This document shows positions 6,027-48,036 of a stretch of 64,000 nucleotides of DNA, piece by piece. The DNA comes from Candidatus Dormiibacterota bacterium. GTDB lineage: Bacteria > Acidobacteriota > Polarisedimenticolia > Gp22-AA2. A program made the translations under genes and the position numbers. The notes beneath the pieces are model-generated. The model was not told the DNA's origin, did no database searches, and saw only the letters and a program-made list of their open reading frames with translations. The stretch spans positions 1 to 64,000 of the forward strand of contig DASQAT010000041.1 in assembly GCA_035635555.1 (NCBI GenBank), in the 5' to 3' direction. Positions within the stretch are counted from its first letter, which is position 1, and the number at the start of each line of letters is the position of its first letter.

Positions 6027-6031
6027 CCCGG

Positions 6032-6505: not shown

Positions 6506-6518
6506 GGGGGGTAAGAGG

Positions 6519-6848: not shown

Positions 6849-6991
6849 CAGCTCTCCAGGGTCCCGACGCCAGCACGTTGGGCCGCGCTCTTATACCATA
6901 GGCGAGGCGCTCGAACCAATAAACCCGCGCCCGATCGGCATATCTCGCCACCCCATCGACCGCGCGACATCCCGGCTGGCAACGACATAAG

Positions 6992-7849: not shown

Positions 7850-7850
7850 T
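7845..7850 (+). promoter_or_regulatory. -10 box (TATAAT) placed for leaderless RNase J transcript
   Basis: A perfect TATAAT lies 7 nt before the GTG start of the RNase J gene and overlaps the rsmA stop codon. Transcription would begin at or next to the GTG. No SD sequence fits in between. No clear -35 box is seen. Confidence 0.6.
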
Positions 7851-7857
7851 CTCCGCC

Positions 7858-25550: not shown

Positions 25551-27161
25551 ATGGGACGGACCCGCTGGCTCCCGTTCGCCATCGTGAGCCTCCTGGCGGC
25601 CGCCCCGTACCTGGCGACCCCCGGCTTCGACTTCGTCTTCGACGACCGGCACCTGATCGTCCACAATCTCTTCCTGCGCGAAGCCACGAGCCCGTTCACC
25701 GCCTTCGCGCACCACTTATGGCACGGAACGCCGTACGGGGCCGCGTATTACCGGCCGCTCGTGGTGGTCTCCTTCGCCTTGAACGGTCTTTTGTCCGGCT
25801 GGGGTCCGGCCGGCTTCCACATGGTGAACGTCCTGCTGCACGCGGCCAACGCGGTGCTGCTGCTGGCCCTGACGCGACGCCTCGGCTGCCCCGGTCCGGC
25901 GGCCTTCTCCGCGGCGGCGCTGTTCGCCGTCCACCCGGTCGCGGCCTGGCCGGTCGCTTCGGTCGTGGCGCGCGTCGATCTCCTGCCGGCGTTCTTCATC
26001 CTGCTCGCGTGGCTGGAACTCTCGCGACCGAGCAGGAGGGCCGTCCTGGTCGGCCTGTTCTTCCTCGTGGCGCTCCTGTGCAAGGAGTCTTCGGCCGCCT
26101 TCCTGGCCGTCCCGGTCCTCGGACTGCGGCGGATGAAGGAGGAGACGCCCGAGAGACCCGATCGGCGGACCGGGCTGGCGCTGGGGTTGGCCGCGGCGCT
26201 CTACGTCCTCCTGAGGCGAAGCGCGGGACTCGGGATCCTGATCGGCCGAGACCTGATCGATCCCCTGATCAACCCCCTGAGCGCACTCCCCATCACATCC
26301 CGCATCCCCGCCGCGATGACGCTCAGCGGTCGCTACCTGCTCTACCTCCTTCTCCCGACCCGCTTCCACGATCCTTCGAACTACCTGGCCCCCGCGACCC
26401 TCCCCGGATCCGGCGACGTCCGCTTCGGACTGTCGCTGCTCGCCCTTCTGGTCGTGGGGTCGGCGGTCACCGTGCTGTCGCTCACGCGCGACAGGATCGC
26501 CATTCCGCTGGCCTTCGCGGCCGCCGCCTTTCTCCCCGCCTCCAACCTCATCGTCCCGATCGCCTCTCTGTATGCCCAGAACTTCCTCTACCTGCCGCTC
26601 CTTGGCCTGTCTGTCGCGCTTGGAATCATGCTGGGGAGAGTCTCGCCCGCGTGGATGCGCCCCTCTCCCATCAAGGTCGCGTGCGCCACGCTCGTGCTCA
26701 CGATCCTCGGCATCGCGTCGTGGCGCGAGGCGGGGATCTGGCGCGACGAGGTGTCGCTGTTCAGCGCGCTGTCGGACAGGTTCCCGTATTACCCGCCGGT
26801 TCACAGCGCTCTCGGAGTGGCACTCCTGGATCGGGGACGGGCGCGGGAGGCGGTCGGTCCCCTCAGGGAGGCGCTGGCGCTCGCGGCGTCGAGCGTCGAG
26901 GCCCACTACAACCTGGGGGTGGCGCTGATCCTGCTTGACGAGAACAGAGACGGGCTGGAGGAGGCCCTCTCACACCTGAAGCTCGCCATCATGTTGCGGC
27001 CCCCGTTCGCGCCGGCCCATGCCCAGGCCGCCCGGGCGCTCCTCCTCATGGGACGGGATCGCGAGGCGGAGGTCGAAGCCCGCGAGGCGGTGCGGCTCGA
27101 GCCGGATCTCCTGCCCGACGTCGAGCGCTTCTTCAGGCAAAAAAAAACCACCGGGCCCTGA
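25551..27161 (+). CDS. TMTC-like membrane glycosyltransferase with TPRs
   Basis: A 536-residue protein with about ten membrane helices. The first loop holds FDFVFDDRHLIVHN, with the Asp pair expected for GT-C enzymes. Next come YYRPLVVVSFALNGLLSG and the typical FAVHPVAAWPVASVVARVDLL and LLCKESSAA motifs of TMTC-type O-mannosyltransferases. The last 130 residues are TPR-like (VHSALGVALLDRGRAREAV, EAHYNLGVALILL). The acceptor is unknown. Its stop codon lies inside the terminator hairpin. Confidence 0.8.
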   Translation: MGRTRWLPFAIVSLLAAAPYLATPGFDFVFDDRHLIVHNLFLREATSPFTAFAHHLWHGTPYGAAYYRPLVVVSFALNGLLSGWGPAGFHMVNVLLHAANAVLLLALTRRLGCPGPAAFSAAALFAVHPVAAWPVASVVARVDLLPAFFILLAWLELSRPSRRAVLVGLFFLVALLCKESSAAFLAVPVLGLRRMKEETPERPDRRTGLALGLAAALYVLLRRSAGLGILIGRDLIDPLINPLSALPITSRIPAAMTLSGRYLLYLLLPTRFHDPSNYLAPATLPGSGDVRFGLSLLALLVVGSAVTVLSLTRDRIAIPLAFAAAAFLPASNLIVPIASLYAQNFLYLPLLGLSVALGIMLGRVSPAWMRPSPIKVACATLVLTILGIASWREAGIWRDEVSLFSALSDRFPYYPPVHSALGVALLDRGRAREAVGPLREALALAASSVEAHYNLGVALILLDENRDGLEEALSHLKLAIMLRPPFAPAHAQAARALLLMGRDREAEVEAREAVRLEPDLLPDVERFFRQKKTTGP

Positions 27162-27178
27162 GGCCCGGTGGCGTTTTT
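27139..27178. terminator. bidirectional intrinsic terminator
   Basis: A perfect 10-bp stem (27148-27157 pairs with 27162-27171) with a CTGA loop is flanked by an A-run on the left and a T-run on the right. It can end the plus-strand TMTC-like transcript and the minus-strand transcript that carries the 38-residue peptide. The TGA stop of the TMTC-like gene forms part of the loop. Confidence 0.85.
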
Positions 27179-27195: not shown

Positions 27196-27312
27196 TCAGC
27201 TGGCGACGGGTCCGATGGATCGGCAGGTATCGTCGGACTTGCCGCAACTCACTGCTCTCGCCTCGATCTTCTCCGTGTGGATGATCGCCGGCTTCTCATA
27301 GGCTTTTTTCAT
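27196..27312 (-). CDS. 38-residue putative precursor peptide with YxxPxI leader motif
   Basis: A short open frame that begins MKKAYEKPAIIHTEKIEARA and ends with an 18-residue tail containing Cys23, a KSDDTC segment (Cys30) and a C-terminal GPVAS. A basic N-terminus, a YEKPAI motif and a small Cys-bearing tail look like a leader/core peptide for PqqD-type (RRE) recognition; a YxxP motif is known from lasso-peptide leaders. GGAG lies about 10 nt upstream. It is the last gene of a minus-strand run (21 bp after the 421-residue secreted protein) and is followed by an intrinsic terminator. The modifying enzymes would be those at 39.7-42.2 kb. The precursor role is inferred. Confidence 0.65.
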   Translation of the reverse strand: MKKAYEKPAIIHTEKIEARAVSCGKSDDTCRSIGPVAS

Positions 27313-27333
27313 TAGTATCACGCTCCGTCGAAT

Positions 27334-28599
27334 TTAGAAACTGGCCGGGTCCGAGAGAAGAGTGCCCGAGGTCAGCACCGATTCAATGTAGAGAACCTTG
27401 GCGCCCTTGAAGTTGCCCTTGGGGATCTGAACCGAGTAGCTGGCTCCCCCGCCCTCGACACCTTTCTTGTCGATCAGAGCGCTGTTCACCTTGATGCGGT
27501 TCTTGCCCCCCTGGGCATCGGCCAGGACGTTGAAGCCGACCAGGCCAAGCTCCCCTTCCGTGCGGAAGGAGATGGACACACTGTTGCCGCCTGCGTTGGC
27601 GCTCACCTGGACGGCGCGCGGGGAAGGAGCGTTCGGATCGCCTGCGGATCCCAGATCGAGATCACCGACCATGGCCGGCGTCTCCACGCCATTGACCATG
27701 CCGGTGGCGCCGAAGTGGGCGCACTGGCCTGCGGCCGGAGGCGGTGTCGGAACACAGAAGTCACCATTGCTGGCGAAATTCGGGTTGGCGACGGGGTCGA
27801 TCGGGATGTTCGTCCACGCGCCCGTGCTCAGGACAGGGTCTGCTCCAGTGCAAGCCTTCGATGCATCCGCGGGAGTGTCTTTCCGGTACAGCTTTCCGCG
27901 GTTCAGAGGGAACAGGGTCGACGCTTGACAGGTCGGGGGGATGAAGCCATTGCCGCCCGTGACGCCCCAGGTCCCGGGGTCGCAATCGGTGTGGGCGCGC
28001 GGCACCGGCATGTTTCCGCACAATGTGCCGCCGGTGAAGCTGCGGAACGTGAGTCCCGCCTCGTTCGTGGTGCAGGAGATCGGACCGGCCGGGAACGTGT
28101 CGGGTTGCGCCAGGTCGAGTGCATACGCCCCCAGATCGAACGAATAGGGGACCGTCACGAAGAGTGACTTTCCTTTGGCGTCGACGACCTGGACGTAGTT
28201 GCGTCCTATATTCGCTGCCTGGGCTGGGTTAGGGCAGCCGGTGAAGCTGCCGCCTCCCCCCCAGTCGAACAGGATGGTCACGTTCCCGTCGTTGGGAGTC
28301 CCTGCATCCGGCTGGCACCCAGCCAGCTGACCGTTCGATGAACCCGCATCCGGACAAGCGATGAGCACCGAACCCGTGTTGCAGCTCGCCGCTCCATTGG
28401 GGCAGGTGGTGTCCGGCGCGACATTGCTCGATACGCCGAAGGCGAAGGCGCGAACCGGTTCCGTGCAGTTCGAGAACCAGCCGCCGAGAAGGTGCTGCAA
28501 CGGCGTGGGGTTGACACAGGCCGCGAACACCGGCGTCACCATCACGGCGATTACCAGAACGCCCGCGAGGGCCGTGCTGCCGATCAGTGCTCTTTTCAT
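27334..28599 (-). CDS. secreted protein of a three-member local family
   Basis: A 421-residue exported protein with a signal peptide (MKRALIGSTALAGVLVIAVM, cleavage near VFA-AC). The N-terminal Cys-rich module contains GNVTILFDWGG, FTGCPN and DLGAYALDLAQP. It matches the modules of the proteins at 15543 and 32772. The C-terminal module (SISF..., LGLVGFNVLADAQGGKNRI) is a divergent version of theirs. No thrombospondin repeats are present. The ATG at 28599 is chosen for GGAGGG upstream; an upstream in-frame ATG at 28632 is less likely. It lies 39 bp after the preceding gene and 21 bp before the peptide gene. Function unknown. Confidence 0.8.
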   Translation of the reverse strand: MKRALIGSTALAGVLVIAVMVTPVFAACVNPTPLQHLLGGWFSNCTEPVRAFAFGVSSNVAPDTTCPNGAASCNTGSVLIACPDAGSSNGQLAGCQPDAGTPNDGNVTILFDWGGGGSFTGCPNPAQAANIGRNYVQVVDAKGKSLFVTVPYSFDLGAYALDLAQPDTFPAGPISCTTNEAGLTFRSFTGGTLCGNMPVPRAHTDCDPGTWGVTGGNGFIPPTCQASTLFPLNRGKLYRKDTPADASKACTGADPVLSTGAWTNIPIDPVANPNFASNGDFCVPTPPPAAGQCAHFGATGMVNGVETPAMVGDLDLGSAGDPNAPSPRAVQVSANAGGNSVSISFRTEGELGLVGFNVLADAQGGKNRIKVNSALIDKKGVEGGGASYSVQIPKGNFKGAKVLYIESVLTSGTLLSDPASF

Positions 28600-28638
28600 A
28601 GTAAGGTTTCCCTCCAGAGGATTCCTGTACAAGGCCGA

Positions 28639-29424
28639 TTAGAAGTGCGCCGGGATGGAAGAAAGAGGCGTGCAGACGCCGGCGCTGGTGCGACGGATCC
28701 TGACAGCCTCCCCCAGAACCAGATTGAGCGTCGAAGCGGCCGACGTGTTGCAGGTCACCGCCGGAGAGGCCGCTGTGCCGTTGATCGGGTCGACCCTCGC
28801 GACGGTCGCGCTCGGGCCGGCCGGCACGCCCGACTGCACGCAGAGATCCTGGGCGGTCACGGCCGTGGTGTGATACGGAACCGAGAACCAAGTCGCGCCG
28901 ATGTTGGAGCTGGCGCCGGCGGTCACGTCGCCGCAGGTCGCGCTCGGAATCCGCCGCAGGAGCAACTGCAGGGACGGACTGTGCGAGCCGACGATGATCG
29001 CCGAAGAAGTGCCGGCGACGAAAGTGTTGTTCCTGATCCGGATGCCGAGATAGGGGGCCGCCACGCCGCCCGGAAGCTCGGCGACCGGCCGATCAGTCAG
29101 GTCGAGCTTGAGCGTGCCGCAGGCTGCGGTTCCACACGAGCAGAGCCGCGTGGCTCCGGTCTCGGGGTTGACCTGAAAAATGGAAGTGGAGACGTTCGGC
29201 AGGGCGAGCTGGGTGCAGACGTCCGCGAACGTGCTGTACGGCCGGTTGAACGGGATGCTGGTCCAGTTGTCGCCCGCGCCCGGCTTCGCCGCGTTGGGCG
29301 GATAGAACGCCTTGTTCATCTTGAAGCCCATGTTCGACGCGACCGCGGCACCCCCCGCCGCGAGGATGAGCACAACCGCGACAACGGCAGCCACCGTCGT
29401 CCGCGAAGGTTTGAATCTAATCAT
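28639..29424 (-). CDS. secreted or anchored protein with two related domains
   Basis: A 261-residue protein with an N-terminal hydrophobic segment (about 11-30) that may be a signal peptide or anchor. Two tandem domains follow, each with a pattern like NW(T/F)S(I/V)P(F/Y)..., a DxC(V/T)Q segment, a V(N/D)P(E/I)(T/N)G turn and a terminal V.....IR(I/R) strand. The first is about residues 48-130, the second about 170-245. Each has several cysteines, which suggests disulfides. The start is ATG 29424 with AAAGGAGG upstream. It is the first gene of the run that ends with the 38-residue peptide. Function unknown. Confidence 0.78.
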   Translation of the reverse strand: MIRFKPSRTTVAAVVAVVLILAAGGAAVASNMGFKMNKAFYPPNAAKPGAGDNWTSIPFNRPYSTFADVCTQLALPNVSTSIFQVNPETGATRLCSCGTAACGTLKLDLTDRPVAELPGGVAAPYLGIRIRNNTFVAGTSSAIIVGSHSPSLQLLLRRIPSATCGDVTAGASSNIGATWFSVPYHTTAVTAQDLCVQSGVPAGPSATVARVDPINGTAASPAVTCNTSAASTLNLVLGEAVRIRRTSAGVCTPLSSIPAHF

Positions 29425-29465
29425 TCTCCGCCTCCTTTGATCATGAAATCCGGGCACAGTGCACT

Positions 29466-29493
29466 TACTTACCGTCATTCCCCTCTTTGTCAA
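29466..29493 (-). promoter_or_regulatory. promoter of the secreted-protein/peptide run
   Basis: On the minus strand TTGACA (29488-29493) is followed after 16 bp by TAAGTA (29466-29471), with CGG just before the -10. The same layout (TTGACA, 16 bp, CGG then TATGTA) lies upstream of the related secreted protein gene at 34565. The predicted start is about 35 nt before the ATG at 29424. Confidence 0.5.
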
Positions 29494-29516
29494 CAGAAAA
29501 CTGCCGGAAACCTGCA

Positions 29517-30110
29517 CTACTCGATACGATAGAACACGATAGGCGCGGCGTCCGAATCCCGGTCGACCCAGTTGTTCCCCTTGATGACGTGCGCTTCCGC
29601 GGAGCCGAAGGACCTCGGATTGTGGCTCTTGTAAACCGTGTAGGACGAACGGGATCCATCGCTCCAGGCGAGACGGACCGCTTGTCCATCCGTGGTCACG
29701 CGGATGCTCGATACCGGCTCGCTCCGGTTCCGCTGCTCGCGCTGGTGAATGACCGCCGGCAGAACCAGGAGGGCCAGGACGAGGGCCGCTCCAGTCGCGA
29801 GCGCGCCGGGTCTGATGGAGAAGGCCCATTCCGGCATGCTGTAGGACCAGCGACGGCCCCGAACCCGCACCGCCGCCTCCGTCGCCATCTTCCTGCGCAG
29901 AGAGTCCGGCAGGGCCATGTCCACCGTGGTTGCATCCCTCAGAACAGAAGCCACTTGGAGGAACCCTTCGAGCTCGGCGCGGCAGCTGTCGCAGGACGCC
30001 AGGTGAGCCTCGAACCCCGACCGATCCTCGGCAGACAGAGCCCCATCCAGGAACATCGACAACCCTCTATGCATGTCTTCGCAGTGAATCATGACTTCTA
30101 TACCCTGCAT
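29517..30110 (-). CDS. zinc-finger anti-sigma factor with extracytoplasmic FN3-like tail
   Basis: A 197-residue single-pass membrane protein. The N-terminus has a zf-HC2 anti-sigma domain (HCEDMHRGLSMFLDG, HLASCDSC). A membrane helix lies around 110-128. The C-terminal 65 residues look like a fibronectin-type strand module (AVRLAWSDGSRSSYTVYKS, NNWVDRD, PIVFYRIE). Such proteins hold an ECF sigma factor inactive at the membrane. The nearest sigma gene is at 34819, not adjacent, so pairing is inferred. The start is uncertain between 30110 and the in-frame ATG at 30092. It follows the FG-GAP gene by 33 bp. Confidence 0.8.
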   Translation of the reverse strand: MQGIEVMIHCEDMHRGLSMFLDGALSAEDRSGFEAHLASCDSCRAELEGFLQVASVLRDATTVDMALPDSLRRKMATEAAVRVRGRRWSYSMPEWAFSIRPGALATGAALVLALLVLPAVIHQREQRNRSEPVSSIRVTTDGQAVRLAWSDGSRSSYTVYKSHNPRSFGSAEAHVIKGNNWVDRDSDAAPIVFYRIE

Positions 30111-30143: not shown

Positions 30144-32696
30144 CTACGGGCAGCCCCCCGACGCCGGTACTCCCGGCTTCCCGGCAGGGACCGAGAGGGT
30201 GTAGCTCCCCGCCGCCCCGCCTACGGTCGACCGGACCAGGTAGAAATACGCGTCCCCGAGGGGGGGGCGTGACGAGTCCGGCAGGCTGGCCGTGTCGGTG
30301 TCGGTGAGATCGTTGGCCAGACAGGTCACGGGACCGAGGTTGTTGGACGTCGGCCCCTGGACGACGAGCCGGAGCTGACCGCGGATGACGTCGTAGGTCG
30401 CCCCCGCGACGACACCCCAGGTGAAGACAGAGGCGGTCTGGCCGATGAAATTCGTCGAGTTCAAGGGGTCGCCGGCGACGGTCATGTTCACCAGGACGGT
30501 TACGGTGTCGTTGAAGTTGTCGGCGATCGCGAGGTCCGGCTTCCCGTCCCCGTTGCAATCGCCGGCGCCGATCGCCACCGGGAGATCGCGTGTGCCGTAG
30601 TCACCCGCCTTGGTGAAATGCCCCTGGCCATCCCCCAGGAGAAGGGAGACGTTGTTGGCGTTGGAGTTGACCGCCGCGACGTCGAGCTTCCCGTCGAGGT
30701 TGAAATCGGCCAGGGCCAGGGCCGTGGGGGCCTGGCCGGCGGGACTGTCGATCGATGGAAAGGAGAACACACCGCCGCCATCTCCGAGGAGGGCGCTCAC
30801 CGTGTTCGAGTCGCTGTTGGCGACGACCAGGTCGAGGAAGCCGTCCCCGTTCAGGTCGCCCCGCACGATGCCACGCGGTCCCAGGCCCACATAGAAGGTC
30901 CCCGGGATATCGACGATGCCGCCGGCTCCGTCGGACCTCGCGATCGCGATGACGTCGGTCGGATCGCGGGACGGACTCGGGCTGGAGGTCAGCGCATAAT
31001 CGTCGAAAGCATCGAGGTTGAACCCGCCGATCGCCAACCCCTCGGGTATCTGCGTCGCTCCAGGGGTGCAGACGGCGGCGCCGAACGTCGTCCCCGAGAC
31101 CCCGGTGCCGCGGCGGGAGCACAGGTCGCCGGAGGTCTCGCAGGCGATGGCGAAGTCTCGGTTGCCGTCCCCGTTCACGTCCCCGGTCGCGATCGCGATC
31201 GGATCGAGACAGCCGACCTGGTTCCCATTGGTCGTCGTGAAGTTGCCCGCGCAGTTCCCCTGAAGGTACGAGTAGGTTCCGTCGCCGTTGTTGGCCGTCA
31301 CCAGGTCGAAGCAATTGTCGCGATTGAAGTCGGCCGTCACCATGGCGATGGGGGTGATCCCGGTATTATTGGCCGAGTTCACAGTGGTGAAGCCGCAAGC
31401 CCCGTCCCCCGTGACCAGGCTGATATTGTTCAGAAACTCGTTGGCGACGGCGATGTCGCGCTTGCCGTCGATGTTGAAATCGGCCACCCCGATCGCCGCC
31501 GGAAACGACCCGACCGGGAGCGGGATCCGCCCGGGAGCCAGGAAGGTGGCCGTGCCGATGCTCTGCGAGATCGACACCGTGTTCCCGGTGTTGCTCGACG
31601 TGGCCACGTCGGGATTCCCGTCCCGGTTGAAGTCCCCCACCGCCGCCGCGTTCGCGGCCGGTCCCACGAAGAGGGTGTTCAGGAGCGTGAATCCGCCCGT
31701 GCCGTTCCCGGTCATCAGGGCCAGCTGACCCTCCTGCGATACCTTGCCCAGGGTGACGAGCAGGTCGAGCTTGCCATCCTTGTTGATGTCCGCCGCCGCC
31801 AGACCGCGCGGCCCGAACCCGGGGGAGAGTGTCGTGGCAGCGTTGAAGCCCCCGGTGGTGTTGCCGAGAAAGAGCGAGACGGTGTCGGCCACCGAGTTGG
31901 CGGTGGCCAGATCCAGGCGGGTGTCGGCGTTGAAATCGGCCGCGATGAGCGACAGCGGACCCGAGCCGGTCGTGAGCGTGCTGGAAAGAGAGAACAGGCC
32001 GGTCCCGTCGCCGCGGAAGATCTGCACCGTGCTCGGCGTGTTGTTGACCACCGCCAGGTCCAGCTTCCCGTCCTTGTTCCAGTCACCGGCGATGACCTGC
32101 TTCGACGCAGCCCCGACGGCGAAGGTCTGCCGGGTGGTCGGGAAGCGCCCGGACAGGTCGCCGAGGAGGATCACCAGGTTCCCCTGCGCCCCGTTCAGGA
32201 CCGCGACGTCCGGTTTGAGATCGCCGTTCCAGTCGCCGACCGCCACGCCGTTCGGTGTCCCGACGACCAGCGTCGAAAGCCGCGCTCCGAAGCCGCCGGT
32301 ACCGTTGCCGAGATGCACCGACACGTCCTGGCTGGTAAGGCTGGACACCACGATGTCCGGGATGCCGTCGTTGTTGACGTCGCTGTAGACCATGCTCGTC
32401 GGCAGGATCCCCGTGAGGAAAGAGGACACCTTCCGGAACGTTCCGTCTCCGAAGCCCTTGACCAGGGCGATGTCCCCCCTCCCCGCGGTCTGCTGGTTGA
32501 CCGTGATCAGGTCGAGTAAGCCGTCTCCGTCATAGTCCGTCGTGACAACACCCACGGGATGGTCCCCGACGATGTAGTCCCGGCGCGATTTGAGCGACGA
32601 CTGCGCCAGAACGGGGGATGCCATGAGCACCATGAGAAGGGCACCGGACAGGACGAGCGGACTCCGGCGGGTCCGGATGCAACGATTGGCTGACAT
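30144..32696 (-). CDS. secreted FG-GAP/VCBS repeat protein
   Basis: An 850-residue exported protein with a signal peptide (hydrophobic segment about 14-31, ending VLAQ). It is followed by about a dozen FG-GAP/VCBS-type repeats with Ca2+-binding DxNxDGxxD loops (for example DYDGDGLLDL, DVNNDGIPDI, DFNRDGNPDV, DLNGDGFLDL). These usually build an integrin-alpha-like beta-propeller on secreted proteins. The last 100 residues form a separate domain (VFTWGVVAGATYDVIRGQL, GDAYFYLVRSTVGGAAGSYT) seen in many secreted bacterial proteins. Ligand and role are unknown. It leads into the anti-sigma gene. Confidence 0.85.
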   Translation of the reverse strand: MSANRCIRTRRSPLVLSGALLMVLMASPVLAQSSLKSRRDYIVGDHPVGVVTTDYDGDGLLDLITVNQQTAGRGDIALVKGFGDGTFRKVSSFLTGILPTSMVYSDVNNDGIPDIVVSSLTSQDVSVHLGNGTGGFGARLSTLVVGTPNGVAVGDWNGDLKPDVAVLNGAQGNLVILLGDLSGRFPTTRQTFAVGAASKQVIAGDWNKDGKLDLAVVNNTPSTVQIFRGDGTGLFSLSSTLTTGSGPLSLIAADFNADTRLDLATANSVADTVSLFLGNTTGGFNAATTLSPGFGPRGLAAADINKDGKLDLLVTLGKVSQEGQLALMTGNGTGGFTLLNTLFVGPAANAAAVGDFNRDGNPDVATSSNTGNTVSISQSIGTATFLAPGRIPLPVGSFPAAIGVADFNIDGKRDIAVANEFLNNISLVTGDGACGFTTVNSANNTGITPIAMVTADFNRDNCFDLVTANNGDGTYSYLQGNCAGNFTTTNGNQVGCLDPIAIATGDVNGDGNRDFAIACETSGDLCSRRGTGVSGTTFGAAVCTPGATQIPEGLAIGGFNLDAFDDYALTSSPSPSRDPTDVIAIARSDGAGGIVDIPGTFYVGLGPRGIVRGDLNGDGFLDLVVANSDSNTVSALLGDGGGVFSFPSIDSPAGQAPTALALADFNLDGKLDVAAVNSNANNVSLLLGDGQGHFTKAGDYGTRDLPVAIGAGDCNGDGKPDLAIADNFNDTVTVLVNMTVAGDPLNSTNFIGQTASVFTWGVVAGATYDVIRGQLRLVVQGPTSNNLGPVTCLANDLTDTDTASLPDSSRPPLGDAYFYLVRSTVGGAAGSYTLSVPAGKPGVPASGGCP

Positions 32697-32709
32697 GCGC
32701 GGCGCCTCA

Positions 32710-32752
32710 GAAAAGAAACCCCGGTCCCGCTCCTTGCGGGGCGGGACCGGGG
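32710..32752 (-). terminator. intrinsic terminator after the TSP3 protein gene
   Basis: A perfect 12-bp stem (32719-32730 with 32741-32752) and a 10-nt loop, followed on the minus strand by a T-rich run (GGTTTCTTTTC). It sits 20 bp after the stop of the gene at 32772. It also lies only 22 bp upstream of the FG-GAP start, so it may act as an attenuator for that gene. Confidence 0.8.
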
Positions 32753-32771
32753 TGCATGGGACAGTTAAGAC

Positions 32772-34565
<1,794 letters not shown>

Positions 34566-34690
34566 CCCTCTCCCCCTTGGAAGGCTCATGACCGAGTTCG
34601 CCAACAGCAACCCGGGCCAGGTTGCCGATCGGCGTCTCCTTGTACCCTGACGTGTGATTTGATGGCAGATACTCCTACCCGCACTATCCC

Positions 34691-34718
34691 TACATACCGC
34701 GAAATAACGCAATGTCAA
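34691..34718 (-). promoter_or_regulatory. promoter of the TSP3 protein gene
   Basis: On the minus strand TTGACA (34713-34718) and TATGTA (34691-34696) are separated by 16 bp. The leader to the ATG at 34565 is about 120 nt. The 253-bp stretch from 34566 to 34818 holds no gene; it contains this promoter and is AT-richer than its surroundings. Confidence 0.5.
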
Positions 34719-34818
34719 CGGTAAATTTGCCCTCCGCCGGTGCAATCCCCGTCCTGCAGACGTCTCCAGATCCTACCGTTTGGTTCTAATACCCGAAAAA
34801 CAGCGCACGCGTTCAACA

Positions 34819-35442
34819 CTATTTGGGATTGACCGAGTCCCGGAGCTTGCGGCGCGCCAGCATGCAGTGCCGCCTGACGGTGATCCGGGACAGTCCGAGG
34901 ATTCGCCCGATGTCTTCGGTGGGGACCTGCTGCAAGTCTCTCAGGACAAAAACGATTCTCTCCCGCCGGCTGAGGCGGTCGAGAGCCGACAGGGCCTTGC
35001 GGAGGAGGTCGGCCGACTGGACCCGCTGCTCGATCGGCACGCCAGGCTCGCGCACCCCCTCGGTGCGCTCCCGGCCGGCGTCCTCCATCGAGACCGTCCA
35101 TTTCGGGCGCATCAGGCGGAGGTGGTCGTACACCGTGTTGACGGCGATACGGTAGAGCCAGCGGTAGAACGATTCGCCGGAACGGAACCGATGGATGTAT
35201 CGGAACACCTTCACGAAGGTGTCCTGGCAGGCGTCCAGGGCCTCGTCGGCGTGCAAGCCCATCTGAACGCCGATGGAGATGACGCGGCGCTCGTACAGAC
35301 GCATCAGGTCGTCGAAGGCGGCGGCCTCTCCCCCCTTGGCGCGCTCGACGAGGGCCGCGATCTGGGGCGACTCACCTTCGGCCTGCGTCGTCCCGACGCC
35401 TTCCGTGAACGTCCTTGGCTTCGTGCTGTCCACGACCGACAC
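34819..35442 (-). CDS. ECF-type RNA polymerase sigma factor
   Basis: A 207-residue sigma-70 family protein with regions 2 and 4 only. Region 2 includes FDDLMRLYERRVISIGVQMG, DACQDTFVKVFRYIHRF and FYRWLYRIAVNTVYDHL. Region 4 reads LDRLSRRERIVFVLRDLQQV, EDIGRILGLSRITVRRH. The start is GTG at 35442. Its AGGAG overlaps the stop codon of the C25 peptidase gene 7 bp upstream, so it belongs to that operon. It probably drives the neighbouring secretion genes, with the anti-sigma at 29517 a candidate partner. Confidence 0.93.
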   Translation of the reverse strand: MSVVDSTKPRTFTEGVGTTQAEGESPQIAALVERAKGGEAAAFDDLMRLYERRVISIGVQMGLHADEALDACQDTFVKVFRYIHRFRSGESFYRWLYRIAVNTVYDHLRLMRPKWTVSMEDAGRERTEGVREPGVPIEQRVQSADLLRKALSALDRLSRRERIVFVLRDLQQVPTEDIGRILGLSRITVRRHCMLARRKLRDSVNPK

Positions 35443-35449
35443 GTAGCTC

Positions 35450-38400
35450 CTAAAAGGGGCTCAGGTTGCCCCGGTTGTCCACGGCGATGACTGAGTAGTA
35501 CTGCTTACCGCTCGGCAGGGTCAAATTTACCGTCAAGCCCCGTACGTTGTCCACGAGTAATGTGGACGGACCGATCGATCCGCGCGAGAACGGCAGGGAG
35601 GAGGCGTGGATCTGATAGTGATCGATGATGGTCGCGAGCCCCGAAACGTCGGTCGTGACGGCCGGCCAGGCGAGACTTATCATCCCCGCGGACCGGGTTA
35701 CGGCCAGTGTCTCGATGCCGTTCGGCAGCTCCCGACCCGCGCCCGACACGAGGCCGCTGAGATCGGTGGCGGTCACCACGTAGTAGAAGTTAGTCGGTCC
35801 CGGTGCCCCCGCCCCGGCGTCGGTATACGTGATGATCGACCCATCGTTGATGACGGCCAGGGGTGTGGACAGGAACGGCATGAAGCCGGGTGCCGTGCCG
35901 CGGTAGACGGTGTACTTGACCACCGTGGTCGAACGGCCGTAGATGTCGACCAGCGGCCGGCTCCAGGTCAGGATGAGATTGCTGCCCGACCGGCTCAGAA
36001 CGAGGTCGGTGATCTCACGCGGCGGAGCGATCCCCTCGAACAGGAGCGGCACCGCGGAGACCTCTCCCGACGGGGCGCTCTCGTGCCCCGAGGTATTGGT
36101 CGCGCTCAGTGCCAGGTAATACCGGACCCCGTTCGTCAAACCTGAAAGGAGAGCGCTTGAGGCTGCCTCCCCGAAGGCAATCTTGCTGGGATATTGCCCT
36201 GACTGAATACCATAGTAGAGCGTGTATCCTTTTATATCGCTCTCCGGATTGGCCAGCCACGCCACGTTCAGCCTTCCGCCGGACCCGGGGTCGGTCGCGG
36301 TCAGCCCTGTCGGAACCGACGGAGGGTTCGGGTTCAGAGGACGTGCGCTCACACAGTCCGGTCCCGTGTCGCAATCGCTGTTGAAGTTCGAGGCCCTCCC
36401 CTCGAACCCCTGCGTGTCAAATGAGACAAGGTAGTAATAGTAGGTCGTGGCGTTGGCGACCGTTCGATCGACGCACGAGGCGCCGGTGATCGGATCGCAG
36501 GCGACAGCACCGTACGGCCCCGCGGCCGAGGTGGAGCGGTAGACGCGGTAGCCGGCGGCCGGGGGCGCCGGCGCTGTCCAGCCGAGCTGCACGGTGGCGT
36601 TCCCCGCCGACGCGACCAGGCTCGTGGGCGGGGGCGGCGCGGGGGTCGCCAGGAGCGTGGCCGGATCTCCGAGAAGGGTGTAGCTCTGCAGATCCGGAAG
36701 ATCCCCCTTCGCCCAGAGTCCAGCGCGCAGATCGTCCGCGACGACGCCGACGAGCCTCTCCTCCCTGTTCCCGAACAGGGGATCGAAAAAGGAGTCGAGC
36801 AGAGGTGTTGCCACCAGGACGCTCGAGAGACCGGAAGGAGCCAGCGAGGCGATCGTTCCTCCGACCGGATTGTTCGTCATCCCCTCGCCAACCGATCCTT
36901 CCGGGAGGTAGAAATGGAAGCCTCCCGTGAGGCAGTTCACGGTGACCATGAAAGGAAGCGGGCCGCCGTTGGTCAGCCGGCTCGCATCCTGGGTGGTGAA
37001 CAGGGGGAAGCGCGCCCCCCAGGTATTGAAGTCCCCATGACCGACGTAGGTCACGATCGCCGCCCCGCCCGAGAGCGCGGTAGTGAAATCGCGCTTGAAT
37101 CCGGCTGCATCGGTGCCGTTGTAGGGCGGCTCCGCGAAATAGAGCGGCGGGCTGGGTGTGCTGTACGGAGCGGTCGAGAAGAACCTCGAGGCGATCTGAT
37201 TGTCGACCCCCTCGAATTCCGCCGTCTCGGGGTCATCGTTTCCGTCGCTGGCGAGTAGGAGCGCGCGTCCCTTCCAGAGACCGGGCGGGGGGGAGGCCTC
37301 GTACTGCCGGATCTTGTCGAACACGGCCGCCGAGTCGATCGCGGTGCGGGTCGAGATCCGGCCCAGGTGGATATCGGGCAGCGGGTCGCCGCCCCGGAAC
37401 GCCGCCAGCCAGTTGTCGCTGCTGTAGTAGCCGAGAATGGCGTTGCTGAGGAACATCATCGGAGTCGGGACCTGGTCCACCCATCCGGGCATCGCCGTGA
37501 GCGTGTGCTTGTAGTCCGGCGTCGCGTCCCCCACCAGCAGGACGAAGGAGGGGGGCGGCTCGACTCCGCTCGTTCCCTTCCAGTTGTCGAAGGCGTATGC
37601 GAGGAAGGACCGGATGGCGTTCGCGTCCCTCAGGCCGTAGCTGAACTCGTCGTAGATCTGACTCATGTACACGACCCTGGAGGTCAGCTCCTGGTGCTGC
37701 AGCCGGTAGTCGAGGAGCGCCTGCAGCGAACCTGTCGGCGAGGCGTCGATCGTCTCCGGCGTGCCGATGACCAGGATGTCGGCGGAGTTCGTGGGATCCT
37801 TGAGAACGGGGGCGGGGGCGGTTTGTATCGACAGGGGATGCAGGAACCCCTGCGGTCCAACCACGATGAACGCCCGCGTGGCCGGTGCGCCCGGGCTCGC
37901 ATCGCGCGGCAACTCGAAGGTGCACGTGACCGGGGGCGCGCCGCTCACCGAGGCGTTGGTGATGCGGACGGGGCTGGCCTCGGCCGAGCCGGACAGCGAC
38001 CGGGTCACTTCATAGACGGCCGGGGGAGGGCCGCTGAATCCGCGTACGTTGAACCGGACGTCCTGGTTCGGGTAATTGAACGGCAGCGCATCCGCGACGG
38101 AGTCGAAGGAGCGGCGGTACTTGATGGTGATGCTGTCGAGATACTGCTGATCGACGCTCACGCCCGCCTGCACCTGCGCCGCCACGTGGATCGTCGTCGG
38201 ATTGGTCAGGATCGACGGCGAGACCGGGAAGTTCGTGCTGAAGATGGTCTCTCCGTCCCAGAGAAAATCGCGCGCGCCGCCGAGGTCACCGTTGAGCCAG
38301 AAGCGGGTGTCGTGGTCGAAGGGCACGCCCGCCACGCTCGTTCCGCCGCGGACCCTCAGGGTCACCAAAGGTGCCAGGGTCGTCGTCGCCAGCCCCGGCA

Positions 38401-39703
38401 GGGGCAGCGTCAGGTCGCGCTGGGCCTGGGCTCCGCCGGCGATGAGCGAAGGCATCGAGAAGAACGGGTCGGCCGCATCGAGCGGGATGTAGATGTTGTT
38501 CTCGTCCCACACCCCCGCCTGCTCGAAATCGGTCGCCGCCGTGTAACCGGCGAGCGGCGCCCCGCTCGTCTCGGTAATCCTCAGATGCGATCCGGCCGTT
38601 CCTCCCGCGGTGAGCCAGTAGACCTGCGTGTCGGTGAAATCGTTCGCCTCGTAGACCGTGGGGAAGCCGGCCTGCAGAAAGTTCACGGACGTCGGCGGCC
38701 CCCCCTTGGGCCGTCCGTAGAAATCGAGGGTGTCTCCCGGATCGAAGTGCCCGTCGGCCTCCCCCGGCCCGCCCGAGGAGGAACGGATCGAGATCGGAAC
38801 CTCGACCCCTTCGGCGCTGAGGACCCAGGTCCCCGGATCGGGGTAGAGGGCGAGGAGATCGGGCGCGCTCGATTGCAGATCGCTGTAGGAGAGGCGGTAG
38901 ATCCCCTCGCTGGACGCGCTGATCTTGTAGCGCGGCGCTCCCGGAGCGGCGGCGGCCGCGAGGAGGTCCTGCGCCGGGGTCGCCAGGGATTGGACGGCGA
39001 CGTCCCCGCTCCGCGTTGTCGCGCGGAACAGCTTCCCCTGCTCGTAGTTCACCAGGGCCCGCTTGTAGGTTTCCTCGAAATAGGGGTCCGGCCTGAAGCG
39101 GCGGAGCGGTTCGGCGGACAGCGTCCCGGGCCCCTCCTTGAAGACGATTTCGGCGCGCACCTCGGGGTAGTAGCGGACCTGGCGGGTGACCGGGTTGTAC
39201 TGCAGCGGCGCCTGGATGACCTCGACGAAGCGCTGCTCGCGCAGGTAGCCTATCGAGCCGAGCCGCACCGCCTCGCCGGGAAAGTCGGCGTCCCGGCCGA
39301 AGACGCGCGCGTCTTCCGAGTACACCGCGTCGCGCCTCTCGTCCTCGGCCCGGCCCGTGCGCTTCTGGACATGCGCGCGCGGCGCCGGGGCCAGCCGCAG
39401 CCGTCCGACTTCGTGGCGGAGGACCGAGGTGACGCGCAGCTCGGGGACGCTCCCCTCGGGGATCGCCACCCGGACGATTTTCAGCGGCAGCATCGGCTCG
39501 CCCGGCCGCGCGGACGCCCCGAACCCCTCGATCGAGGGGACGAGCATCTCCTGTCCCTCGAGCGGGGTGAATCGCGGTTCCGCGGCCTCGAGCACGAGGG
39601 AGGTCGAGCCGACAACACCCGGAGGGGCGCCTTTGCCCGGGGAGGCCAGGGCGGCGAGCGACAGCAGGAAAGGGGTCAGCCTTCGGAGGATCCGGAACTT
39701 CAT
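35450..39703 (-). CDS. secreted gingipain-like C25 cysteine peptidase with FN3 domains
   Basis: A 1417-residue exported protease. After the signal peptide comes a long pro-region (PMLPLKIVRVAIPEGSVPEL, RYYPEVRAEIVFKEG). The C25 catalytic domain spans about 650-1000, with His near 887 (YVGHGDFNTWG) and Cys near 923 (VNCLTGGF). The spacing of about 35 residues matches the gingipain dyad. About four fibronectin-III-type modules form the C-terminus. No type IX sorting signal was recognised. The ATG at 39703 is chosen because it starts the signal peptide; the frame is open to 39751, overlapping the radical SAM gene. The operon context suggests a link to the peptide system; a leader-protease role is speculation. 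Confidence 0.88.
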   Translation of the reverse strand: MKFRILRRLTPFLLSLAALASPGKGAPPGVVGSTSLVLEAAEPRFTPLEGQEMLVPSIEGFGASARPGEPMLPLKIVRVAIPEGSVPELRVTSVLRHEVGRLRLAPAPRAHVQKRTGRAEDERRDAVYSEDARVFGRDADFPGEAVRLGSIGYLREQRFVEVIQAPLQYNPVTRQVRYYPEVRAEIVFKEGPGTLSAEPLRRFRPDPYFEETYKRALVNYEQGKLFRATTRSGDVAVQSLATPAQDLLAAAAAPGAPRYKISASSEGIYRLSYSDLQSSAPDLLALYPDPGTWVLSAEGVEVPISIRSSSGGPGEADGHFDPGDTLDFYGRPKGGPPTSVNFLQAGFPTVYEANDFTDTQVYWLTAGGTAGSHLRITETSGAPLAGYTAATDFEQAGVWDENNIYIPLDAADPFFSMPSLIAGGAQAQRDLTLPLPGLATTTLAPLVTLRVRGGTSVAGVPFDHDTRFWLNGDLGGARDFLWDGETIFSTNFPVSPSILTNPTTIHVAAQVQAGVSVDQQYLDSITIKYRRSFDSVADALPFNYPNQDVRFNVRGFSGPPPAVYEVTRSLSGSAEASPVRITNASVSGAPPVTCTFELPRDASPGAPATRAFIVVGPQGFLHPLSIQTAPAPVLKDPTNSADILVIGTPETIDASPTGSLQALLDYRLQHQELTSRVVYMSQIYDEFSYGLRDANAIRSFLAYAFDNWKGTSGVEPPPSFVLLVGDATPDYKHTLTAMPGWVDQVPTPMMFLSNAILGYYSSDNWLAAFRGGDPLPDIHLGRISTRTAIDSAAVFDKIRQYEASPPPGLWKGRALLLASDGNDDPETAEFEGVDNQIASRFFSTAPYSTPSPPLYFAEPPYNGTDAAGFKRDFTTALSGGAAIVTYVGHGDFNTWGARFPLFTTQDASRLTNGGPLPFMVTVNCLTGGFHFYLPEGSVGEGMTNNPVGGTIASLAPSGLSSVLVATPLLDSFFDPLFGNREERLVGVVADDLRAGLWAKGDLPDLQSYTLLGDPATLLATPAPPPPTSLVASAGNATVQLGWTAPAPPAAGYRVYRSTSAAGPYGAVACDPITGASCVDRTVANATTYYYYLVSFDTQGFEGRASNFNSDCDTGPDCVSARPLNPNPPSVPTGLTATDPGSGGRLNVAWLANPESDIKGYTLYYGIQSGQYPSKIAFGEAASSALLSGLTNGVRYYLALSATNTSGHESAPSGEVSAVPLLFEGIAPPREITDLVLSRSGSNLILTWSRPLVDIYGRSTTVVKYTVYRGTAPGFMPFLSTPLAVINDGSIITYTDAGAGAPGPTNFYYVVTATDLSGLVSGAGRELPNGIETLAVTRSAGMISLAWPAVTTDVSGLATIIDHYQIHASSLPFSRGSIGPSTLLVDNVRGLTVNLTLPSGKQYYSVIAVDNRGNLSPF

Positions 39704-39738
39704 AGGCGGCCGGTACGGGACCCGGCCATCACCTCTCG

Positions 39739-40845
39739 TCACATGCTGCACTTGCTCAGGATGCCCCCCTCATCCTCGAGCGTTTCCCCCGTTTTCGCCT
39801 TGTGGGCCTCGTAAGCCTTCATCCTGAACTCGGCGTTCTTCGCCGCCTGCGGGTAGTACGTCAACGGGTCGCCGGTCTGCAGATCGGCCACACCGAGACA
39901 GAAGTTGCAGAACCCGCCGGACTGCCCCGACTGCTGCATCGTCCGGAGCTTGTCCGCCATCTCGACGGCGGCGCGCCGCACGTCGATCAGGACCGGCGAG
40001 CTGTGCCAGATCTCCTTCAGCGAGGCGACCTCCTTGATGTTGGCGACCTTGCGCCGCCACTGCACGCAGGGATAGATGTTGCCGTACGGATCGATGGCGA
40101 ACGAGGAGCGACCGGTGCCGCACACCGCCTCGCCCGGCTGCTCCTTGCGCGGGATCGGCACAGGATCGATCCGCGCCGCGGCGTAGGCCGGGTCGGACCA
40201 GAAGCGCCTCAGGAAATCGTCCGTCGCCATCAGGCTGAGAGGGTCCTTGTCGCCGTCGTCGCGCGGCGTGATGACCGGGTCGAAGATGATCATCACTCCC
40301 AGCTCCGTCGCCAGGCGGCGCATGTCGAGCACCTCCTCCTGGTTGTCGCGGGTGATGGGACATTTCAGGTTGACCTTGATCCCCTGGGCGCGCAGGTGCT
40401 TGACCGCGTTGATCACGCGCTGCAGGGAGCCGGGCACGCAGGTCAGCTTCTCGTGCGTCTCCGGACGCGCGCCGTGGATGCTGATCTCGATCTCGATCGG
40501 ATTGGCGATCTCGCGGATCCTCTTCGCCATCGGCTCGTCGATGAGGAAGGCGTTCGTGTAGATCCGCAGGGCGAACCCGAGATCGCGCGCCTTCCTGGCG
40601 ATCTCGAAGAAGTCGCGGCGCACCAGCGGCTCGCCGCCGGTCAGCGTCAGATAGAGGATGTTGAAGTCGGCCAGCTTCTGCAGCGCCTCGAACACTTCCT
40701 GTGTCGTCATCTCCTTCTGGCCGGTCGGGCTGTTGTAGCAGAAGGAACAGGCGTGGTTGCAGACGAAGGTCAGCTCGAGCAGGGCCGACATCGGCACGGC
40801 CCGGCTCCAGTTACGGACGGTCAGATCCTCCAGGGCGTTGGCCAT
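39739..40845 (-). CDS. radical SAM/SPASM peptide-modifying enzyme, PqqE-like
   Basis: A 368-residue enzyme with the [4Fe-4S] motif CNHACSFC near residues 29-36, the GGEP motif (LTLTGGEPLVRRDF), and a SPASM-type C-terminal region with further cysteines (CGTGRSSFAIDPYGNIYPC, FCNFC). Enzymes of this build modify ribosomal peptides with help from PqqD-like carriers, by forming C-C, thioether or similar links. The ATG follows directly on the stop of the pqqD-like gene. It sits third in a five-gene operon. The substrate is not shown directly; the 38-residue peptide at 27196 is the best candidate seen. Confidence 0.93.
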   Translation of the reverse strand: MANALEDLTVRNWSRAVPMSALLELTFVCNHACSFCYNSPTGQKEMTTQEVFEALQKLADFNILYLTLTGGEPLVRRDFFEIARKARDLGFALRIYTNAFLIDEPMAKRIREIANPIEIEISIHGARPETHEKLTCVPGSLQRVINAVKHLRAQGIKVNLKCPITRDNQEEVLDMRRLATELGVMIIFDPVITPRDDGDKDPLSLMATDDFLRRFWSDPAYAAARIDPVPIPRKEQPGEAVCGTGRSSFAIDPYGNIYPCVQWRRKVANIKEVASLKEIWHSSPVLIDVRRAAVEMADKLRTMQQSGQSGGFCNFCLGVADLQTGDPLTYYPQAAKNAEFRMKAYEAHKAKTGETLEDEGGILSKCSM

Positions 40846-41115
40846 TCAGATCACCATCCCGTGAGCGCGCAGCGATTGAAGGAACTCGAGGACGTCGCGG
40901 CGCGCCACTTCGGGCGTGGTGTCGCACTGTTCCACCACCTCGTCGATGAGCTGCGCCACGGTGCGGGTGCCGTCGATGTGGTCCCACACCAGACTGCCGA
41001 TCTCGTTGAGGACGTTCACCTCGGCCTGCTCCGGCAGGACGATCGTCGCCTGTCCGTCGTAGATCCGGTAGGCCGAGTTCGGGTTCTTCCGTGGAACCAT
41101 CGCGAGGTCGGTCAT
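40846..41115 (-). CDS. PqqD-like peptide-binding (RRE) protein
   Basis: An 89-residue PqqD-type winged-helix protein expected to hold a leader peptide and present it to the radical SAM enzyme. The family pattern is clear: a strand pair at the N-terminus (YRIYDGQATIVLPEQ), VNVLNEIGSLVWDHIDGTRTV, the helix AQLIDEVVEQCD and a C-terminal VLEFLQSLRAHGMV. The ATG at 41115 overlaps the TGA of the HPr-kinase-like gene (ATGA). The frame stays open further upstream, but only as antisense-type sequence of that gene. It joins the radical SAM gene with no gap. Confidence 0.92.
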   Translation of the reverse strand: MTDLAMVPRKNPNSAYRIYDGQATIVLPEQAEVNVLNEIGSLVWDHIDGTRTVAQLIDEVVEQCDTTPEVARRDVLEFLQSLRAHGMVI

Positions 41116-42155
41116 CGCGCCGTCCCCTCGATGACCGTCCAAAACGACGGGTCCTTGCGGAACCACAGGCGGTACGCCGGAACGGTCGCGAGCAGCCGAT
41201 CGATCACCTCCAGCGCCCGGCCGGACTGCCGCGTCTCCTGCATCACGAACGGAAGGCTCGCCGACACCTCGGCCAGTGCGCGCGCACCGGTGAGAGGCTC
41301 GCGCTTCACCTCGAGGCTCTGGACCAGACTGTTGAGCGAGGCGATCGGGAACGAGTCGCGGCTGTCGGGCACCCGGTGGTGGGCCATCCCGAACGGAATC
41401 CCGGCCGCTTCGAAGCCGCCGCCGTTCCTGACGATAAGCGACAGGTCGTCGCTCAGGACGACGTCCTCGGGGGACAGATGGGTCACGGTCGTCTTGCCAC
41501 GCCCCGAAGGGCCGAAGAAAAGATGGGCCGCGCCATCCCGCACGACACCCGAAGCATGCAGCAGCAGTCCGCCGCGCTCGAGGATGTAGAAGGCGGTCAC
41601 GACGCGCAGGAAATTCTCCAGGCCTCGATCGAACTGCGCGCCGCGCTCTTCGACGAGCGCCAGAATCGCGCGCCCCTCCGAGGGATCGAGCCGTCCGGCG
41701 AACTCGTACGCCCACAGCGCGAGGCTCTCGCCGGTCCGCCGGGTCTCCAGACGGTAGGTCTCGTCCGACCCGTCGCGCCGCGTATTCAGAAAACGATCCA
41801 CGCCGGCCGGATACAGGACGATGTGGACGTCCGGCCGCGCGGCGGTTTCGACGACGAAGGGCCTGAAGCGCCGGGCGAGATCGTCCGCCTGGCGCTCGGA
41901 CAGCCCGTCGAGAGACATCTCCAACGGACCGAACCCGAGCGCGACCGAGGAGGAGCCGAACGACCGCCTCAGCCGGCTGAAGTACCGGTCATCGGGAGCG
42001 AAATCGGTCTGGACGCCAGTCTGCTCCCCCGCTGTCTCTGTAGATAGCACGATGCCGCCTGCCCCCTGTCTGAGCTCTGTCCGGAGTGTCGCAAAGGCTT
42101 TGAGGACGCGCAAAATATACCGTGATCGGGGCAGCCTGTCCAAACCTATCTTCAT
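41112..42155 (-). CDS. HPr-kinase-like ATPase of a peptide-maturation operon
   Basis: A 347-residue protein with the C-terminal fold of HPr kinase/phosphorylase. Walker A is GPSGRGKTT, and the strand VVLSDDLSLIVR carries the Asp pair. Such proteins recur beside PqqD-like and radical SAM genes, where they may phosphorylate a peptide or protein; the activity here is untested. The start is uncertain: ATG 42155 gives the longest form, but the first 35 codons are unlike the rest, and GTG 42050 fits the size of the second copy at 47122 better. First gene of the operon. Confidence 0.88.
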   Translation of the reverse strand: MKIGLDRLPRSRYILRVLKAFATLRTELRQGAGGIVLSTETAGEQTGVQTDFAPDDRYFSRLRRSFGSSSVALGFGPLEMSLDGLSERQADDLARRFRPFVVETAARPDVHIVLYPAGVDRFLNTRRDGSDETYRLETRRTGESLALWAYEFAGRLDPSEGRAILALVEERGAQFDRGLENFLRVVTAFYILERGGLLLHASGVVRDGAAHLFFGPSGRGKTTVTHLSPEDVVLSDDLSLIVRNGGGFEAAGIPFGMAHHRVPDSRDSFPIASLNSLVQSLEVKREPLTGARALAEVSASLPFVMQETRQSGRALEVIDRLLATVPAYRLWFRKDPSFWTVIEGTAR

Positions 42156-47121: not shown

Positions 47122-48036
47122 GTGAGTGGAGCCGCTTCAGTTTCACCGCCACACGTAGAAGAGTTCCGCGCCTGGACACGTCCCGCCGGCGCGCGCGCCG
47201 CCCGCATCGATATCTCCGGGATTGCTGTCGAGTTCGAAGGGCTGCCCGGGCCGCTGGCCGATCGCATGTCGGTCGTGTATGCCCCTTTCATCGGCCCGCC
47301 GACCGGCGCCGGGAGGCCGCTCCGCCTGCGCATGTACGAGGCCCCCGTGGAGTACTTCGTCCGTCCCGGTTACCGGCAGGGGGCATGGGAGGAGGTCTAC
47401 CGGATGCACACCGCCCTCGAAGACGGAGTATTCCGCACGGTCTCCTACCGGCTGGCCTCCTGGATCGACGTTGGGCGACGCGAGGGGGCACTGGCCCTCG
47501 CGACCGGTGAGCTCGACCCGCCGCCGCGCGCCCTGGAGAATTTTCTCCGGAGCAGCGTCGCCTGGCTCACCTTGGACGCCGAGGGTTTCTTCCTGCACGG
47601 CGCGAGCATCGTCCGGCGGGGAAGGGCCTACATCTTCTACGGTCCGTCCGGTGCTGGTAAGTCGACCCTCGCGGCCATGAACACCGAGGGCGAAGTGATC
47701 AGCGACGACCTGACGCTCGTGTTGCGGAAGCCCGAGGGACTGGTCGCCGCCGGAGGCCCGTTTCGCGGGACCTACAGGCACGGTGCTCCCGTCGTCGGCA
47801 CCTATCCGGTGGCCGCCTTCTATCGCCTCCGCAAGGACAAGGCAGGCGAGGTGCGGCCGGACGATGGAGGGTGCTTCGCGGATCTGCTCGGTAACCTCCC
47901 TTTCGTAGTCGATCAGATGCCGCGGTATCCCCACCTCATCGACCGGGTCCGGTCGCTGGTTTCAGATGCGCGGTTCGGATACCTGCACTTCAGCAAGGAC
48001 GAGGACTTCTGGCCGGCTATCGACGCCCGGGCGTAA
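47122..48036 (+). CDS. second HPr-kinase-like ATPase
   Basis: A 304-residue paralogue in fold of the protein at 41112, with Walker [20 protein letters not shown] as the acidic strand, and the same flanking segments ([27 protein letters not shown]). It stands alone here, with no PqqD or radical SAM gene beside it; the peptidase-like/methyltransferase fusion runs into it with a 20-bp convergent overlap. It may serve the same peptide pathway or a separate one. The start is GTG 47122. Confidence 0.85.

Follow-up and report, generated by a model that had tools for sequence, protein, structure and literature searches.

A conserved 38-residue peptide of Acidobacteriota as the putative substrate of a radical SAM/PqqD cassette that carries an HPr-kinase-like gene

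Among the closest described systems to the locus considered here are the lasso peptides with a tailoring kinase (paeninodin/PadeK, ThcoK, SyanK, pseudomycoidin and BsfK). Leaders recognised by lasso B1 proteins of the TbiB1/TfuB1 type carry the motif [Y/W]xxPx[L/V/I/F/A] (PMC13381572), and the lasso kinases target a C-terminal Ser with the rest of the sequence mattering little (PMC8498205). An H-G-G-G-K-S/T-D-D motif has been found by mutagenesis to be important in the lasso kinase BsfK (PMC10368454). BsfK (PMC10368454) and LppK (PMC13381572) phosphorylate Ser3 of the core and not the C-terminus, so the position of phosphorylation cannot be read from the kinase alone. In the LPP family (LppA/LppK/LppB; Nat Commun 2026, PMC13381572) an HprK-like kinase acts on a linear precursor. 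The lasso and LPP kinases serve as functional precedent, but the systems they belong to rely on other enzymes (PMC13381572; PMC8498205).

The locus lies within a 64,000 nucleotide stretch of DNA, which we call the window (Table 1). The lasso-kinase systems share with it a YxxPx[L/I] leader, a discrete RRE of the TbiB1/TfuB1 type, an HPr-kinase homologue with the same catalytic motif and a precursor that ends in Ser, the core being otherwise unrelated. They differ in that here a radical SAM enzyme appears to stand in place of the lasso peptidase B2 and cyclase C, the core has two Cys residues and the phylum is a different one. The cassette genes that were scanned in the window and its relatives, which for the window are not all of its genes, include neither a B2 transglutaminase-like peptidase nor an Asn-synthetase-like cyclase. 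The LPP family is alike in its YxxP leader, RRE and kinase but has an SpI-like peptidase, an NTP-transferase and an exporter, with no radical SAM enzyme mentioned and with core Ser3 as the phosphorylated residue (PMC13381572). SynChlorMet (Scm; NCBIfam TIGR04248-TIGR04251) combines PqqD-like, radical SAM/SPASM and ScmC-like proteins, and the best NCBIfam names for our proteins are ScmD for the PqqD-like protein and ScmC for the kinase. However there is one radical SAM enzyme here as against ScmE plus ScmF, and no NCBIfam model has a meaningful match to the 38-residue peptide or to ten distant candidate precursors. Membership of SynChlorMet was rejected, as the scores fall well short of the curated thresholds (44.8 of 100, 36.2 of 125 and 89.8 of 400) and those of distant cassettes are likewise below. 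Sactipeptide and ranthipeptide maturases (SkfB, CteB, StsB) provide the closest solved folds and are among the closest radical SAM profiles and also work on a Cys-bearing core, whereas the present system has only three conserved Cys in the SPASM region, a stand-alone RRE and a kinase, and its linkage type is undetermined. What is new here is a radical SAM/PqqD cassette that also carries a kinase of HPr-kinase/PEPCK fold with the lasso-kinase motif. In the open-access literature, the coverage of which was incomplete, we found no paper joining HprK, radical SAM and RiPP and none on SynChlorMet.

We propose that the short ORF encodes a RiPP precursor, and give this reading a probability of roughly 0.7. 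The PqqD-like protein would bind the leader of this peptide, which contains YEKPAI and spans residues 1 to about 20, the radical SAM enzyme would modify the core around the two conserved Cys, most likely by a thioether cross-link, and the kinase would phosphorylate Ser38. If so, a substrate would be assigned to orphan radical SAM, PqqD and HPr-kinase-like genes over many uncultured lineages, and phosphorylation of a C-terminal Ser, until now tied to lasso-type systems, would extend to radical SAM peptides. The predicted product is specific and one co-expression experiment can test it.

Table 1 Features of the peptide locus and of the associated cassette within the window
Feature	Position	Strand	Details	Basis
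Intrinsic terminator	27147..27172	-	G+C-rich 11 bp stem, T8 tail; 3' of peptide ORF	
Precursor peptide gene (putative)	27196..27312	-	38 aa, MKKAYEKPAIIHTEKIEARAVSCGKSDDTCRSIGPVAS; YEKPAI, C23, C30, Ser38	Translation, alignment, dN/dS
Shine-Dalgarno-like GGAG	27323..27326	-	10 nt before ATG of peptide ORF	Sequence
sec1, sec2: two apparently secreted proteins	27334..29829	-	Just upstream of peptide	Hydrophobic N-terminal stretch by eye
FG-GAP repeat protein and thrombospondin type-3 repeat protein	30144..34745	-	Between radical SAM gene and peptide	Pfam
ECF-type sigma factor	34819..35442	-	Conserved directly after C25 gene	Pfam; cluster c6 in 16 loci
Secreted C25 (gingipain/PorU-like) cysteine peptidase	35450..39751	-	C25 propeptide and fn3 domain	Pfam
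Radical SAM enzyme, reduced SPASM-type C-terminus	39739..40845	-		Pfam Radical_SAM and SPASM, alignments A2/A4, fold
PqqD-like protein (RRE)	40846..41115	-	Overlaps kinase gene's stop codon	Pfam PqqD E 5.6e-16
HPr-kinase/PEPCK-fold kinase (putative peptide kinase)	41112..42155	-	H200-x14-G215-P-S-G-R-G-K221-T...D236-D237	Motif, AlphaFold model
Second HPr-kinase-like gene	47266..48036	+	Divergent from uvrB	Kinase profile match G000:C41:47170-48027, E 3.1e-52

The earlier note, made from the letters alone, had described a short minus-strand ORF with a GGAG, YEKPAI at residues 5 to 10 and Cys at 23 and 30, and all of these are borne out by the sequence and its translation. It had also placed the ORF at the close of a minus-strand run before an intrinsic terminator, and the stem and T tail of such a terminator are present; this can be read on the plus strand too, where a converging gene ends. 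On the minus strand the neighbouring gene upstream ends at 27334, which leaves 21 nt before the start of the ORF. Of the 412 ORFs in the window that begin with ATG and encode 25-100 aa, the peptide ORF alone has YxxPx[ILV] within its first 14 residues, and scans of the window for Rfam families and tRNAs gave no match. That the ORF is a real gene, far beyond chance, is confirmed.

Homologues of the peptide were found in 35 of 60 relatives (E 0.1 or better, mostly far below) with identity down to 49-60%. In an alignment of 33 members (A1) the residues K3, Y5, P8, A20 and C23 are invariant and E14, E17, A18, R19, C30, G34, P35 and S38 are conserved to at least 90%. Every member has exactly two Cys (33/33), and the last residue is Ser in 30, Thr in two and Gln in one. 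Among the window peptide and those of five relatives dN was 0.07-0.27 and dS ranged from about 0.6 to saturated, and with dN well below dS the constraint acts at the protein level, as under purifying selection. A lack of homologues alongside the PqqD/radical SAM operon, or conservation of the DNA only, would have refuted the idea of a substrate; neither is the case. The slow evolution of the core is more suggestive of a housekeeping or surface/regulatory role than of an arms-race antibiotic, and its near-invariance makes the function worth seeking in Acidobacteriota, a phylum both abundant and poorly understood.

The PqqD-like protein (profile A5) has TbiB1 as its closest solved chain (E 1e-18), and TbiB1 and TfuB1, which are lasso leader-binding proteins, are better matches than the PqqD of PQQ biosynthesis. 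YEKPAI fits the B1 leader motif given above. Since the solved chains closest to the PqqD-like protein are those whose leaders bear YxxPx[L/V/I], the argument from lasso systems that a PqqD-type domain recognises the YxxP leader holds by way of this similarity, with the binding itself inferred.

In other families, some 30 genomes have 40-225 bp between the peptide and their orthologue of the window's radical SAM gene (G013, G015, G016, G018, G020, G021, G024, G028, G030, G032, G033, G034, G036, G039, G040, G042, G057, G070, G094, G132, G140, G164 and others), and gene maps show a recurrent block of PqqD, radical SAM, peptide(s), C25 peptidase and ECF sigma factor. Co-occurrence of the peptide with the radical SAM gene was also seen across 297 genomes of the phylum. 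Counting strong matches, both peptide and radical SAM gene were present in 34, the peptide only in 6, the radical SAM gene only in 4 and neither in 253, which puts the peptide in 34/38 radical SAM-positive and 6/259 radical SAM-negative genomes (Fisher p = 4.6e-34). As the genomes are related this p value overstates their independence. Two of the six peptide-only genomes (G005 and G023) are interrupted by contig ends. The proposal that the peptide is a substrate of the PqqD/radical SAM system is strongly supported by this adjacency and co-occurrence; substrate status remains an inference, there being no biochemical data.

The product of the ORF could instead be a small protein, secreted or regulatory, that shares a transcript with the secreted-protein genes and has nothing to do with the radical SAM enzyme, as its place in the window just past a secreted-protein gene and 12 kb from the radical SAM gene might indicate, together with copies of the peptide that lie far from radical SAM genes in some genomes. 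It has no signal peptide by eye but a YxxP leader of the RRE type, and the adjacency and co-occurrence in other families contradict an unlinked small protein, which leaves this explanation hardly credible.

The window was said to hold a split locus of 12 kb with a PqqD-like gene, a radical SAM/SPASM gene and two HPr-kinase-like genes. All of these genes are present and the distance stands, the peptide being 12.4 kb from the radical SAM gene, but the idea of a separate locus does not, as both lie on one strand of one contig in a co-directional block and are proximal elsewhere. The distal layout, with the peptide 12-15 kb downstream of the radical SAM gene, occurs only in the window's order (the window genome G000, G001, G006, G008 and G009), and the intervening genes, all on the same strand, encode the C25 peptidase, a thrombospondin-repeat protein, an FG-GAP protein and two secreted proteins. 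The FG-GAP/thrombospondin layout is common to the window and the other four genomes. On the radical SAM tree genomes with the proximal layout lie all around those with the distal one, and the simplest view is that the distal layout is derived; the proximal G018 is placed inside (support 91/87), with one or two origins unresolved. Judging from the gene order and this tree, the 12-kb arrangement is not the normal state of the system and would most simply be a secondary layout of the window's order. Orphan peptide copies far from any radical SAM gene were seen at L048, L049, L052, L054, L039, L057, L060 and L070. Some genomes have one radical SAM orthologue and two peptide loci, which suggests one maturase for several precursors.

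The radical SAM enzyme has the conserved CxxxCxxC (C29/C33/C36) and beyond this only C242, C260 and C316. With three conserved Cys in its SPASM region it does not meet the canonical seven-Cys SPASM motif, although Pfam SPASM still matches (E 3e-7). The closest folds to its AlphaFold model (pLDDT 91) are SkfB (Z 25.5), CteB (25.1), ChlB (25.1) and SuiB (24.5), which are tied and are all peptide maturases. A thioether is the probable linkage, as inferred from these relatives and from the conservation of the Cys residues. PqqE is also a close solved relative by sequence (E 6e-37; fold Z 22.4), and the core is conserved across the whole class, unlike most bacteriocin-type peptides. Both would fit a substrate of the PqqD/radical SAM pair from which a small redox cofactor or signalling compound is made, comparable to PQQ from PqqA and mycofactocin from MftA, with the kinase acting on another substrate or a later intermediate. 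PqqA carries a Glu-Tyr pair and MftA a Val-Tyr pair, whereas the conserved features here are Cys, Gly-Pro and a terminal Ser, and precursors beside the kinase mostly end in Ser, so we think a cofactor product unlikely.

In the kinase the catalytic motif H...GxxGxGK[S/T]...DD is present (H200, G215, G218, G220, K221, T222, D236 and D237). Its AlphaFold model (pLDDT 86) has the PEPCK fold, which is common to HPr kinase, with Z 14-16 (best 16.2) and rmsd 3.9-4.5 over about 260 residues, and all 50 fold matches listed are PEPCK; the absence of HPrK structures among these 50 carries no weight for or against. Candidate precursors of distant kinase-containing cassettes, from Acidobacteriota to Omnitrophota, Nitrospira and Planctomycetota, end in Ser in 24 of 32 cases, against a background of 8.4% of gene C-termini (binomial p about 7e-20 if independent). 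Related sequences inflate this significance; the 32 were listed by hand and not blind, several are close relatives and eight do not end in Ser. The near-invariant terminal Ser of the peptide suggests a mature product with phosphate on that residue, the phosphorylation being inferred.

The kinase gene lies directly before PqqD in the window's order, G018, G042 and G057. In several families it is found 7-15 kb off near uvrB/uvrC, or elsewhere, and not beside PqqD. One or two HPr-kinase-like genes were also seen between uvrC and uvrB in other families. This shifting of the kinase genes relative to PqqD would be expected if they belonged to the uvr neighbourhood or to a second cassette and if Ser and Cys were kept for other roles, such as recognition by the radical SAM enzyme or PorU-like attachment to a secreted protein by C25. 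That peptidase is linked to the peptide about as tightly as PqqD, and its best solved relative is PorU, a sortase-type peptidase of the T9SS. Set against this, the kinase is directly next to PqqD/radical SAM in the genomes named above and in most distant cassettes, and the C-terminal Ser is kept in cassettes in which no C25 was seen (e.g. L105, L107, L124 and L127). We therefore consider such other roles quite unlikely and retain phosphorylation of Ser38 as the preferred reading.

In most families the C25 gene comes immediately after the peptide, and the His-Cys dyad is conserved in cluster members. Release of the core would require a peptidase, possibly the co-conserved C25 cutting after Arg19; C25 may instead attach the core or be its target. 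As proof of such a cut we dropped the S1-pocket residue, since Asp163 of RgpB faces mostly Glu but other residues too and the alignment is ambiguous. With Arg19 absent in some members this leaves C25 cleavage a weak step and a mere possibility. Beside the peptide we identified neither an exporter nor a leader peptidase of a type known from RiPPs. The products of sec1 and sec2 have no Pfam match; sec2 accompanies the cluster in other families too. The ECF sigma factor and large C25 peptidase are conserved as neighbours at about 15 loci in the phylum. A conserved gene upstream of PqqD and next to a polyprenyl synthase gene (cluster c4; L044:1497-3470 and relatives) encodes 4-5 hydrophobic N-terminal stretches and then a long soluble part. 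We had suspected an exporter; the gene product has no Pfam match. A protein with a transglutaminase core and TPR lies near the cassette in one family only (L045:11135-12295, L040:12250-).

A scan of 84,980 genomes with the radical SAM alignment found cassettes of HprK-like, PqqD-like and radical SAM genes in Thermoanaerobaculia, Blastocatellia, Omnitrophota, Nitrospira, Planctomycetota, Methanophagales and others, including the gammaproteobacteria Thiolapillus, Sedimenticola and Thiocapsa, and many soil and sediment bacteria have the cassette. The kinase of most distant cassettes immediately adjoins PqqD and radical SAM, and short ORFs next to many of these cassettes have a YxxP-type leader and Cys-bearing cores that are otherwise divergent. 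On balance we lean towards an uncharacterised RiPP superfamily of wide distribution, which would span Acidobacteriota, Omnitrophota, Nitrospira, Planctomycetota and gammaproteobacteria, perhaps with Methanophagales archaea, and in which a Cys core would be modified by radical SAM enzymes and a C-terminal Ser phosphorylated by an HPr/PEPCK-type kinase. In Acidobacteriota the core hardly varies and is linked with a gingipain-like peptidase and an ECF sigma factor, which on this reading would imply a physiological function that is conserved and not an antibiotic.

The window genome has a second, paralogous cassette on contig C46 (L151, G000:C46:376000-390000, 5843-8466) with PqqD, radical SAM, peptide and HprK-like kinase genes. 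Its peptide of 63 residues has YxxP, reads IYETPALRRVRLVPDEAVLASCK...CSHSAS and ends in Ser, and cassettes of this type are also present in G001, G004 and the record Acidobacteria gp22 AA3 (L133). Three HprK-like genes with PqqD and two radical SAM genes occur in L087 (Aminicenantes) and L089 (Thermoanaerobaculum aquaticum MAG), one of the three kinases being without the usual P-loop pattern. Larger PqqD-rSAM-rSAM-peptide-HprK-rSAM cassettes were seen in Nitrospira (L124, L127, L132, L136 and L142), with long, Cys-rich precursors ending ...DSGPRAS or similar.
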